DNA of 64,000 nucleotides from an uncultured Phycisphaerae bacterium (GTDB lineage: Bacteria; Planctomycetota; Phycisphaerae; UBA1845; Fen-1342). Both the position numbers and the translations under genes were made by a program. A model generated the notes under the pieces. It searched no databases. It had not been told where the DNA came from and was given only the letters and a program-made list of their open reading frames with translations. This document shows positions 32,394-37,576 of this stretch, piece after piece. Numbering within the stretch: position 1 is the stretch's first letter; each line of letters opens with the position of its first letter. The DNA is taken from assembly GCA_937928595.1 (NCBI GenBank), contig CALGJV010000015.1, positions 1 through 64,000 of the forward strand, in the 5' to 3' direction.

Positions 32394-33763
<1,370 letters not shown>

Positions 33764-33767
<4 letters not shown>

Positions 33768-34978
33768 CGCTCGTCCGTTCCCTGCCCCGCGGCCGGCGCC
33801 GTCCGCGGAAGTTCCACCACCACGATCGTGCCCACGCCGGGCGCGCTGCGGATCGCCAGCTGCCCCCCGTGCGCTTCCACGATCTTCCGGCAGATCGGCA
33901 GCCCCAACCCCGTTCCGCGAGCCTTGGTCGTGTAGAACGGCTCCAACGCCCGCCGCAGGACATCCGGCGTCATCCCGCTTCCGCGGTCCTCGACCACCAC
34001 CCGCACCTCGTCCTCGTCAGCCGCCGTCGTGGTCAAGCGCACGAGCCCGCCTTCGCTCGACGCCTGCGCCGCGTTCAGCACGAGGTTCATCAGCACCTGC
34101 TCGAGCTGGTGCTCGTCCGCCTCCACCAGCGGCACCGGCCCCGGCGTCACGACGTCGAACCGCAGCTTCTGGAACAGCGGGTCCTCGCGCACGATCCGCA
34201 CCACGCGCTCCGCCACCCCCGCCACGTCGCACTTCTGGAGCCGCGGCGGCTTCGGCCGCGAGTACACCAGCAGGTCCTTGACCGTCCGGTCCACGCGCCC
34301 GATCTGCCGCAGGATCTCCCCCAGCACGGGCCAATGCGGATCCGTCCGTTTCAAGCTGTCGCGGATCACCTCGATCGCCCCGCTGATCCCCGCCAGCGGG
34401 TTCTTGATCTCGTGCGCCAGCGAAGCCGCCAGTTGCCCGATCTGGGCCATCTGCTCGGCCTCGTTCAGGCGGGCCTGCATCGCCTCGCGCTCGAGCTGCC
34501 GCACATGCTGCGTATGGCTCTGCTTGTAGCTCTCGGCCATCATCCCGATCTCGAGCGTGAGCAACCGATGCAACGCCGCGCGCTTCGCCTCGAGTTCCGG
34601 CGGCGCCGCCTCCCTCAAGAGCGCATCGAGCTCCGCCCGCACGATCTCCATTGCCGCAAGCGCGAAGTGCTGCGGCAGGCCGATCCGCACGTGGGCCCGA
34701 CCGATCCGATCCCGGTCGTGGCAGTACGCCGCCCCGTACTCCCCGCCGAACAAGCCGCGCAGCCACGTCAGCAACGTCGCCCGCAGCCGCCGCATCTGCT
34801 CCGGCGTCCCGTCCAGCACCGCGCGCGTCCCGGCGTGCGACTGCACCGCCTCGTAGAACCGGCTCACCACCCGGTCCAGCCCCGGCTCGAGCAGGGGGCG
34901 CAGCTCGCGCAGGGCCGCCGCATCCACGGCCGTGAACCCCACGTACGCCTTCATTTCCTCGAACACCGCTTCGATCAT
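33764..34978 (-). CDS. globin-coupled histidine kinase (probable oxygen/redox sensor)
   Basis: 404 residues, soluble. Residues 1-155 form a sensor globin (protoglobin/HemAT-like), with proximal haem His H96 in RIGRAHVRIGLP and FYEAVQSHAGTRAVL upstream. A coiled coil follows. HisKA has phospho-acceptor H189 in SLAHEIKNPLAGISGAIEVI. The HATPase shows NLVLNAAQASSEGG, DRGSGM and GTGLGLPICRKIVEAHGG. Globin-coupled kinases respond to O2 or haem redox state. It is translationally coupled to the NtrC-type regulator, its obvious partner. A -10-like TACAAT lies eight bases before the ATG and there is no ribosome site, so the mRNA may be leaderless. Confidence 0.9.
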
Positions 34979-34986
34979 TCGGCGGG

Positions 34987-34992
34987 ATTGTA
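34987..34992 (-). promoter_or_regulatory. -10 element for the globin kinase/NtrC operon
   Basis: TACAAT on the minus strand followed by CCCGCCGA and then the ATG at 34978, so transcription would begin within about 3 nt of the start codon. The -35 is poor. Confidence 0.42.
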
Positions 34993-35092
34993 TCGGCCGG
35001 CCGCCCCGCGCGGGGACCGGACTCGGACCGGCCTGGGCCGGTGGGGCAACTTTCGCACCGCGGGGGATTTCCCACGATCCGCGGCCGTACCG

Positions 35093-35112
35093 GTGTTGCC
35101 CCGCCGCAACAC
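35093..35112. promoter_or_regulatory. perfect dyad, candidate NtrC-type activator site
   Basis: GTGTTGC-N6-GCAACAC: a 7-bp perfect inverted repeat, about 103 bp upstream of the -24 element of the receiver gene. That distance and symmetry suit a sigma-54 enhancer site for the neighbouring NtrC-type regulator. A second CGGTG...CACCG dyad (35038-35060) lies further up. Confidence 0.6.
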
Positions 35113-35202
35113 AACCCGCCGGTCAGCCCCCGCCCCGCCGCCGGAGCCGCCCCCCGCTCGGATTCCCGGAGTGCCCGGCGCAAGCTCCACGTAGCGCGCC
35201 GC

Positions 35203-35220
35203 TTGGCACGCCGCGTGCAA
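35203..35220 (+). promoter_or_regulatory. sigma-54 (-24/-12) promoter of the degenerate receiver gene
   Basis: TTGGCACG-CCGC-GTGCAA: the GG at 35205-35206 and GC at 35217-35218 are exactly 10 nt apart, and TGGCACG is full consensus for the -24 box. Expected start near 35230, 20 nt before the ATG. Confidence 0.75.
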
Positions 35221-35249: not shown

Positions 35250-35663
35250 ATGAGCATGTCGGTTTCGAGCTACGCGGACAACTCGGAATCCACCCCGGCA
35301 AGCCGGGCGCTCCCGCGGCTCCTGGTTGTGGAGCCCGACCGGCTCACCCAGTGGTCCATCGCGAAGTTCCTCGCCCGCTGGTTCACCATCCGGCGGACCG
35401 GGTCCGTGGACGGCGCCCGCGCGCTGCTGCGCGAGCAGCCGGTCGACGACCTCCTGCTTTCCGGCAACCTCCCGGCCGGCGCGGCCGAGGCCCTGGACGC
35501 CTTCGCACGCGAGCAGAATCCCGCCGTCCGCACAATCCTGATGGTTACGGGCGAAGGGGAGCTCCCCCGGCTGCCCGGGGCGGATCTGATCGAGAAGCCC
35601 TTCGAGCTGTCGGCCCTGGCGCGGCTTCTGGGAGTACCGGCCGCCGAGTTGGCGCAGGCCTGA
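35250..35663 (+). CDS. stand-alone degenerate receiver domain protein
   Basis: 137 residues. After a ~20-residue Ser-rich N-terminus the protein reads as a CheY-like receiver: LLVVEPDRLTQWSIAKFL, DDLLLSGNLPAG, VRTILMVTG and DLIEKPFELSALARLL. The phospho-acceptor Asp is replaced by Ser (S71), and the acidic pair is E28-P29. The switch Thr (T100) and conserved Lys (K116) remain. It probably works without phosphorylation, as a binding partner or titrator. It is the single gene between the globin kinase operon (divergent) and malic enzyme (convergent), and has its own sigma-54 promoter. ATG at 35250 is used; 35256 is an alternative. Confidence 0.75.
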   Translation: MSMSVSSYADNSESTPASRALPRLLVVEPDRLTQWSIAKFLARWFTIRRTGSVDGARALLREQPVDDLLLSGNLPAGAAEALDAFAREQNPAVRTILMVTGEGELPRLPGADLIEKPFELSALARLLGVPAAELAQA

Positions 35664-35764: not shown

Positions 35765-37477
35765 TCAGTCGGCGGGTTCGTACGGCTGGTAGTCGGGGTA
35801 CCACATGGCCCCGCGGACCAGCGGCTCGATCTCCGCTTCGGGAATCATCCGCCCGAGGTTGAGCCGCCGCGCCTCGCGGATCACGTTCATTGCGATGCGG
35901 GCGCTGATCTCACGCAGCATGCTCTGCTCCGGGTAGAGCGCGTGGAGCTTGAGCCGGTCGGGCGTGATGCACTCGGCCAGCGTCTTGGCCGCGACCATGA
36001 AGAACGACTCGGGCACCTCGGTCGCCTCGGACAGGATCGCCCCCAGGCCGACGCCCGGGAAGATGAACACGTTGTTGCCCTGCCCGATGACGTGCCTCTG
36101 CCCGTTGTACTCCACCGGTTCGAACGGGCTGCCGGTCGCCACCAGCGCCCGGCCGTCGGTCCAGCGAATCGCCTCGGCCGGCGTGCACTCCGCCTTGGAA
36201 GTGGGGTTGCTGAACGCGTAGATGATCGGCCGTTCGACATGCTTGGCCATCTCGCGGACGATCTCCTCGGTGAACGTGCCGGCGCGGGCCGTGGTGCCCA
36301 GCAGGATCGTCGGTTTGACGTGCCGGACGACCTCGAGCAGGTCCCAGGGGCCGTTGCCCTTAAATCCGTAATCGCGCAGCTCGGCCTTGGTCAGGGCGAA
36401 CGGTCGCTTGTGCGGGTCCTTGATTGGCTCCCCGTCGTGGACCAGACCCACGGAGTCGACGAACACCTGGTTGCGGTGCACCTGCGCCTTGTCGTCCGTC
36501 TCCAACAGCATCGCGTCGGCCACGAGCCGCCCGATGCCGACGCCGGCCGCGCCGGCCCCCGCGTAGACGATCCGCTGCTCGCAGAGCTTGCCGCCCGTGA
36601 TGCGCAGACCGCCGTACAGGCCCGCCAGAGCCACGGCGGCGGTGCCCTGAATGTCGTCATTGAAGCACGGGATGCGCCGCCGGTAACGGTCCAGCACCAT
36701 GAACGCGATGTTCTTGTGGAAGTCCTCCCACTGCACCAGCGCGCGCGGGAAGACCTCCTTGACGCCGTTTACGAACGCCTCCACGACCCGCTCGTACGCC
36801 TCCCCCCGCAGACGCCGGTTGCGCCAGCCCATGTAGTACGGGTCGTTGAGCAGGTCGGGGTTGTCGGTCCCGACGTCGAGGCTGATCGGCAGCGTGGCGG
36901 ACGGGTGAATGCCCGCCCCGGCACAGTACAGGGCGATCTTGCCGATCGGGATGCCCATGCCGCCCGCCCCCTGGTCCCCCAGGCCCAGGATGCGCTCGTT
37001 GTCCGTCACGACGATCAGGCGAATTTCGGTGCTCGCGGCGTTACGCAGCACCTCCGGCACCCGCTCGATGTCGTCCGGCGTGATCCACAGCCCGCGCGTC
37101 CGGCGGAGGATGTGACTGAACTGCTGGCACGCCTGCCCGACCGTCGGCGTGTAGACGATCGGCAGCAACTCCGCCGTGTTCTCGACCAGCACGCGGTAGA
37201 ACAGCGTTTCGTTGAGGTCCTGCAGTGCAGCCAGCCCAATGTACTTCTCCAGCGGCGTGCCTTTCGCCCGCAGGTGCTCCAGTTCGAGCTGCACCTGCTC
37301 CTCGATCGTCAGCACGCGCCATGGCAGCAGCCCGCGAAGGCCGAAGCGCTCGCGCTCTTCAGCCGTGAAGGCCCGCCCCTTGTTCAGCAGCGGGTTGCGC
37401 AGCAGCTCCCGGCCGCGCAGCGGCACGCGCAGGCGCTGGCCGGCTTTCCAGTAATTCGGCGGTAGTCTGAAGTTCAT
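35765..37477 (-). CDS. maeA: malic enzyme (malate to pyruvate + CO2)
   Basis: 570 residues, the long bacterial/eukaryotic form. Visible motifs: [40 protein letters not shown], the metal site [11 protein letters not shown], the Rossmann fold [13 protein letters not shown] and late [17 protein letters not shown]. The form usually prefers NAD. ATG at 37477 has AGGAG upstream. It is the third gene of a minus-strand run after PFOR and the DHOD-like gene, with about 100-nt gaps, and would supply pyruvate for PFOR. Confidence 0.92.
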
Positions 37478-37576
37478 CGGATGCGCTCCTTCTGCGCGGC
37501 CGTGCACGCCACGCAATCCGCCCCTACGGTAACCGCCCGGGCCGGTCCCCGCCAAGGGCGGCCGCGCAGCGCCACC

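Follow-up and report, generated by a model that had tools for sequence, protein, structure and literature searches.

A lone receiver-like protein encoded in the window (the whole analysed stretch of 64,000 nucleotides) belongs, judging by its alignment, to a lineage-restricted family of pseudo-receivers in which loss of the phospho-accepting aspartate is conserved. Observed in the sequences were this loss of Asp, linkage to a globin-coupled histidine kinase and an NtrC-type regulator, a conserved sigma-54-type site, closeness to the NtrC receiver and the conservation of particular surfaces. For the proposal that the family arose from the receiver of this regulator and turned into a decoy for its oxygen-sensing kinase, expressed from a sigma-54 promoter that the regulator fires, the chances appear about even. 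The features concerned were as follows.

32394..33767, minus strand: NtrC-type response regulator with a receiver (Asp53), a sigma-54 activation domain and HTH_8 (Pfam, profile, tree)
33764..34978, minus strand: globin-coupled histidine kinase (protoglobin, HisKA, HATPase_c), the proposed partner (Pfam, conserved residues, synteny)
34979..35203, no strand: divergent intergenic region from the kinase to the pseudo-receiver promoter (sequence)
35204..35219, plus strand: sigma-54-type promoter TGGCACGCCGCGTGCA, 46 nt before the ATG (exact match; recurs in relatives)
35250..35663, plus strand: pseudo-receiver gene (ORF and translation; family alignment)

The pseudo-receiver ORF runs from ATG to TGA and encodes 137 aa forming a lone receiver-like domain; an in-frame ATG at 35256 is a possible alternative start. 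The preliminary description of this DNA had placed Ser at the position of the acceptor Asp, which was confirmed by the ORF, the translation and the alignment register: the residue is Ser71, and the spacing around it is normal, with Asp at -5 and Leu-Pro at +3 and +4 relative to it. The acidic pair, given there as E-P, was likewise found at E28-P29, followed by D30 (register checked). As for the statement that Thr and Lys of the switch remain, Lys is in place (K116, within a retained K116-P117-F118), whereas Thr corresponds only approximately, as T100 after beta4 lies one residue later than the switch Thr of the neighbouring NtrC receiver in the ungapped register. The protein contains no Cys. 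The definition of a bacterial pseudo-receiver in PMC12632262 includes recognition as a receiver by computation (PF00072) and a receiver fold. The window protein had zero Pfam matches at E ≤ 1; within alignment A1 (14 members), a Response_reg match at E ≤ 0.1 was obtained for 8, the best at 4.6e-5, and a profile of the 14 matched receiver domains of solved structures (best E 8.4e-6). A single-sequence fold model of low confidence (mean pLDDT 53) gave alternating strands and helices without alpha4, and Foldseek returned zero matches to this model at E ≤ 0.001; the single-sequence structure was too poor and was set aside as evidence.

Relatives were searched for in one genome per species. Within the window's family, 16 of 27 genomes matched and 14 were kept, the window genome included, while rows for G010, G024 and another location in G020, all weak matches to other frames, were dropped. 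The order-wide profile search matched 46 of 114 genomes, of which 43 were kept, and three (G033, G037 and G097, 50-56 bits) were judged to lie outside the family. The 43 members comprise 14 in family f1, 28 in family f7 and a marginal one in f8 (G105). A class sample of 397 genomes yielded 40 members, every one within the same order, and a phylum sample of 392 genomes yielded the window genome and one doubtful match (G707, inside a 491-aa frame), with no convincing member outside the order. A scan of named genomes with the pseudo-receiver returned two weak ordinary receivers.

In the alignment of the 43 pseudo-receivers, the acceptor position is occupied by Ser (31), Ala (10), Thr (1) or Gly (1) and never by Asp or Glu; the neighbouring NtrC receivers have the acceptor Asp in 36/36 (rows L121 and L032, with broken frames, excluded). 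The second acid of the acidic pair is Pro in 37 of 42 pseudo-receivers (L128 excluded). The residue after the acceptor position is Asp in 34/42 and Gly in the window protein, so that a displaced acceptor is unlikely as a rule, and the presence of Ala at the acceptor position in 10 members indicates that a hydroxyl is not generally needed. Alignment of orthologues at Ser71 had been named beforehand as the test, and the acceptor Asp was kept by none of the 43, which rules out a mutant copy or sequencing error behind Ser71. Chance or error is excluded because the gene is found in 43 of the 114 genomes of the order and its acceptor position never holds an acidic residue.

The best other match of the family profile in the window genome is the adjacent NtrC receiver (44.4 bits; the next has 30.2). 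A tree was constructed from 18 of the 42 pseudo-receivers, 12 of the 36 NtrC receivers and 28 of the 38 other receivers of the genome that exceeded the cut-off. The pseudo-receivers formed one group (100/100) with a long stem, and together with the NtrC receivers they stood apart from the other 28 (99/98). Both share an L-x-x-W-S motif in alpha1, with Leu, Trp and Ser present in 42/42, 42/42 and 41/42 pseudo-receivers and in 36/36, 36/36 and 35/36 NtrC receivers, respectively, and W-S at this position was found in 0/28 of the other receivers of the genome. The motif also occurs in the NtrC of genomes without a pseudo-receiver (L034, L064-L066) and thus belongs to NtrC first; the shared alpha1 residues may have been inherited rather than kept for docking. 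By sequence, the pseudo-receiver appears to derive from, or to be sister to, the neighbouring NtrC receiver, as part of a feedback-brake reading which as a whole is held with slightly better than even confidence.

Among the kinases at these loci, the phospho-acceptor His is conserved in 39/39 and opens an HExxN arrangement (H189, E190, N193), also in 39/39; HExxN after the phospho-acceptor His is the arrangement of bifunctional HisKA kinases. The globin His and Tyr are conserved in 38/39 and 36/39, respectively, and by position are presumably the haem residues on the proximal and distal sides. GAFTGA is the usual form in sigma-54 activators, whereas the NtrC of the window and its relatives carry GAFTDA in 38/38. 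In one relative (L121, 7322-8713), a break between query residues 216 and 218 divides the NtrC frame in two, by either an assembly error or a real loss.

Of the 43 stretches, 30 have the kinase and the pseudo-receiver in divergent orientation, 2 have the pseudo-receiver downstream of NtrC and on its strand, and 11 lack the kinase. One of the latter (G070) is a contig break, with the kinase start at the end of the same contig in divergent orientation. Consequently, 33/43 pseudo-receivers are linked to the kinase-NtrC pair (31 divergent counting G070, and 2 on the same strand), and 10/43 are unlinked to the kinase on the stretch seen. In L122 and L125 (G088 and G087; one genus), the gene lies just downstream of NtrC on the same strand. 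The kinase is found in 90 of the 114 genomes of the order, 41 of which also have the pseudo-receiver; it is thus present in 41 of the 43 genomes with the pseudo-receiver versus 49 of the 71 without it (Fisher p 7e-4, uncorrected for relatedness). Genome G007 (84% complete) has the pseudo-receiver without the kinase or a close NtrC, and its sister G008 has both. Genome G082 (L120; 97% complete) contains the pseudo-receiver with its promoter and neither a kinase nor an NtrC orthologue; it is genuinely hard to reconcile with a strict kinase partner and is a candidate for a switched partner. A search of 47 more stretches (43 from genomes lacking the gene) for diverged pseudo-receivers beside kinases that apparently have none was negative. 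The sole find among these stretches was a clear ordinary receiver at a distance from the kinase (L156).

The sigma-54-type pattern TGGCACGNNNNNTGCW occurs at 8 sites in the 3.69-Mb genome versus 15 for the reversed control; being no commoner than the control, a single match proves nothing alone, and recurrence is what counts. Upstream regions were therefore compared by the best site within 260 nt, scored with a weighting from general knowledge (maximum 27.5; threshold 24.5). Sites scoring at least 24.5 were found in 38/43 relatives versus 2.5% of about 4000 windows drawn at random from these stretches; upstream of the kinase, 6/39 regions had one (Fisher versus pseudo-receiver upstreams, 1e-11). 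In 39/43, the distance from the best site to the first strand is 81-122 nt. The constancy of GG and GC is partly built in, since both are heavily weighted in the choice of site, whereas the constant position is not. Unlinked copies of the pseudo-receiver retain the site, in a weaker form in L024 and L109, and L114 has no convincing sigma-54-type site in the 260 nt upstream. In L122 and L125, a site is present about 50 nt before the first strand despite the moved gene. Genus g43 (L100, L101 and L106) has an additional sigma-54-like site, TTTGGCACAGCACAT, which follows a TGCGGCA word and is farther upstream than the first. A palindromic operator instead of a promoter (GCACGC-C-GCGTGC at the window site) was considered and rejected, because its five central bases vary in relatives, unlike TGGCACG and TGC of the promoter site, which are largely constant.

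RpoN is encoded in the window genome. In L037 (own genome, C4:65223-65238, minus strand), an exact TGGCACGNNNNNTGCW site lies 87 nt upstream of the rpoN ATG, which suggests that sigma-54 may feed back on its own gene. The intergenic region 34979..35203 is expected to hold an NtrC enhancer; in the 43 upstream regions, no dyad or word exceeded shuffled sequences, and the word TGCGGCA was found in 12/43 of them at no fixed position. As the enhancer searches were negative, we infer from adjacency that NtrC rather than another activator drives the promoter.

The surfaces retained by the pseudo-receiver were assessed by segment identity to NtrC over 29 same-locus pairs. The highest values were obtained for the first half of alpha1 (0.55), beta1 (0.47) and the loop between them (0.38), followed by KPF-alpha5 (0.31) and by alpha2, beta3 and alpha3 (about 0.2), and the lowest for the second half of alpha1 (0.17), the beta4-alpha4 region (0.10) and beta5 (0.06). 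Within the pseudo-receiver family, conservation is lowest in the beta4-alpha4 region (0.22), which is also about four residues shorter than in NtrC (mostly 46 versus 50 residues from the acceptor position to Lys). Receivers touch the DHp helices of kinases through alpha1 and the beta5-alpha5 loop, as in the HK853-RR468 and Spo0B-Spo0F structures, and the conserved beta1-alpha1 and KPF-alpha5 of the pseudo-receiver are taken here to be its kinase-docking face. The preliminary description had offered three options, namely, that such a protein titrates the kinase, binds the NtrC receiver or acts as an anti-activator; since the conserved face is the alpha1 and KPF-alpha5 edge, occupation of the kinase is the best of them, and the shortened, unconserved alpha4 region, part of the usual dimer face, makes binding to the NtrC receiver a poorer fit.

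It seems on balance probable, from these sequence features, that the pseudo-receiver is a docking-competent, non-phosphorylatable decoy which would be made when NtrC is active and would inhibit the kinase by negative feedback. The globin kinase would phosphorylate NtrC, and NtrC-P with RpoN would fire the divergent sigma-54 promoter; the accumulating pseudo-receiver would then occupy the HisKA/DHp domain of the kinase, and the occupied kinase would have lower autophosphorylation or transfer less phosphate to NtrC. The pseudo-receiver, on this view, retains its docking face, whereas the chemistry of phosphorylation and much of the alpha4 portion of the output face are gone. A protein with a retained docking face and a diminished dimer/output face, unable to accept the phosphoryl group and transcribed from a sigma-54-type promoter that lies opposite the gene of a sigma-54 activator, is most simply read as a feedback decoy, in which the binding to the kinase is predicted and the sign of the effect is presumably negative. 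The earlier suggestion of a non-phosphorylatable receiver within the same circuit is well supported by the loss of Asp, linkage to the pair and similarity to the NtrC receiver. As a whole, the earlier interpretation is partly supported, and the sigma-54-type promoter, which was absent from it, adds feedback to that reading.

The most serious competitor, although somewhat unlikely, is that the pseudo-receiver is an output of the circuit, that is, a phosphorylation-independent effector with another target, the level of which is set by the kinase-NtrC pair; an expression-set output of this kind is proposed in one model for CmrT in the cited passages (PMC12632262). The conserved sigma-54-type promoter suits an output as well as a brake, and the gene and promoter are kept in unlinked copies and in G082 without the pair; against this, the protein is a lone domain without an effector part, its conserved parts are the kinase-facing edge common to NtrC, plus KPF, and its co-occurrence with the kinase is near constant (41/43). 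A kinase-bound pseudo-receiver might also stimulate the phosphatase state, or raise signalling as an adaptor, which differs from the decoy in sign or step. This is improbable: the docking evidence is the same as for the brake and the invariant HExxN of the kinase agrees with it, but the tested analogues FixT and Osp leave kinase dephosphorylation unchanged in the available account (PMC9430884), and sequence decides neither way.

Anti-activation, by a heterodimer with the NtrC receiver or a block of the NtrC AAA+ domain, is suggested by the fact that this receiver is the closest paralogue and by the known pseudo-receiver/receiver heterodimers of WhiI/BldM (PMC12632262, passages cited); it appears decidedly improbable, as no part of the family is less conserved than the alpha4 region, which is also shorter by about four residues. 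The output, phosphatase and anti-activation models rank below the feedback decoy. The probability is slighter still that Ser71 is a regulated site, targeted by a Ser/Thr kinase, or that the gene is a decaying copy without function. Ser is present in 31/43 members, and the atypical regulator GlnR is described as Ser/Thr phosphorylated (PMC12632262, in part), but Ala in 10/43 rules out a generally required hydroxyl, and conservation of alpha1, KPF and the promoter across two families argues against decay.

The feedback decoy would work like FixT and Osp, a likeness of proposed function. According to the passages cited, these receiver-like inhibitors block kinase autophosphorylation, were never seen phosphorylated and form negative feedback loops (PMC7078487, PMC9430884). 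FixT of Caulobacter crescentus and Sinorhizobium meliloti is, like the protein studied here, a lone receiver-like protein; it is described as an unphosphorylated negative-feedback inhibitor of the haem oxygen-sensor kinase FixL and as lacking the acidic pair (PMC7078487, PMC9430884). Caulobacter FixT binds Fe-S via a 4-Cys motif in the same excerpts, whereas the window protein has no Cys and the motif is absent; the kinase is a protoglobin kinase instead of FixL, and the promoter is of sigma-54 type. Osp of Rhodobacter sphaeroides binds the transmitter domain of CckA and inhibits autophosphorylation, and osp is transcribed under CtrA, the regulator of its own circuit, with a CtrA site conserved upstream (PMC9430884, passages cited). 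As reported there, Osp keeps Asp (D51) and lacks the acidic pair and Lys, whereas the pseudo-receiver lacks Asp and keeps Lys; CckA is a hybrid kinase with osp not beside it, whereas in the window the pseudo-receiver lies beside the kinase-NtrC pair. Judged by sequence only, the pseudo-receiver agrees with the FixT/Osp type in being a lone domain that cannot be phosphorylated, as the acceptor Asp is absent; since FixT and Osp lack the acidic pair and Osp keeps Asp, the loss of Asp here follows another path.

Two other systems resemble the locus in gene content. NmpT of the NmpRSTU system of Myxococcus xanthus is a receiver-only protein encoded with the protoglobin kinase NmpU, and the last component of the pathway is an NtrC-like regulator (PMC11841059, PMC6211767, passages cited). 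Of the two receivers in NmpT, the first accepts phosphate, and NmpT is proposed there to be a phospho-sink, whereas a single domain without an acceptor is found here; the Nmp path also runs through the hybrid kinase NmpS, and no such kinase lies beside the pair here. CmrT of Clostridioides difficile CmrRST is a pseudo-receiver encoded with an otherwise normal kinase-regulator pair, for which kinase-binding or set-by-expression models are discussed (PMC12632262, in part). It is described as an atypical response regulator in an operon with the pair, whereas the pseudo-receiver is a lone, divergent domain with its own sigma-54-type promoter.

Pseudo-receivers are common and receiver-like kinase inhibitors are already known; in myxobacteria, according to the passages cited (PMC6211767, PMC11841059), globin kinases are known to function in pathways that include NtrC-like regulators. 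In the titles and abstracts of openly licensed PMC literature, neither this pseudo-receiver family nor a decoy receiver acting on a globin kinase was found to be described; what came up was FixT, Osp, the Nmp system and a review of pseudo-receivers. As far as the literature searches reach, the family, its promoter and the combination suggesting partner, switch and origin together are new. If the feedback decoy is correct, the family would be a third, independent instance of a kinase brake shaped like a receiver, and the second such brake to act on a haem oxygen sensor; all members seen have lost the acceptor Asp itself. Globin-coupled oxygen sensing would also gain an extra layer of feedback. 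As the family offers a probable partner, a probable on-switch and a paralogue to compare it with, the decoy idea is testable with three proteins that look soluble.

Dockerin-like repeats were noted in one protein of the window and may point to a planctomycete. A malic enzyme gene (window 35768-37555) is convergent with the pseudo-receiver in several genomes (L021, L025, L026) and lies beside it even where the kinase is elsewhere.
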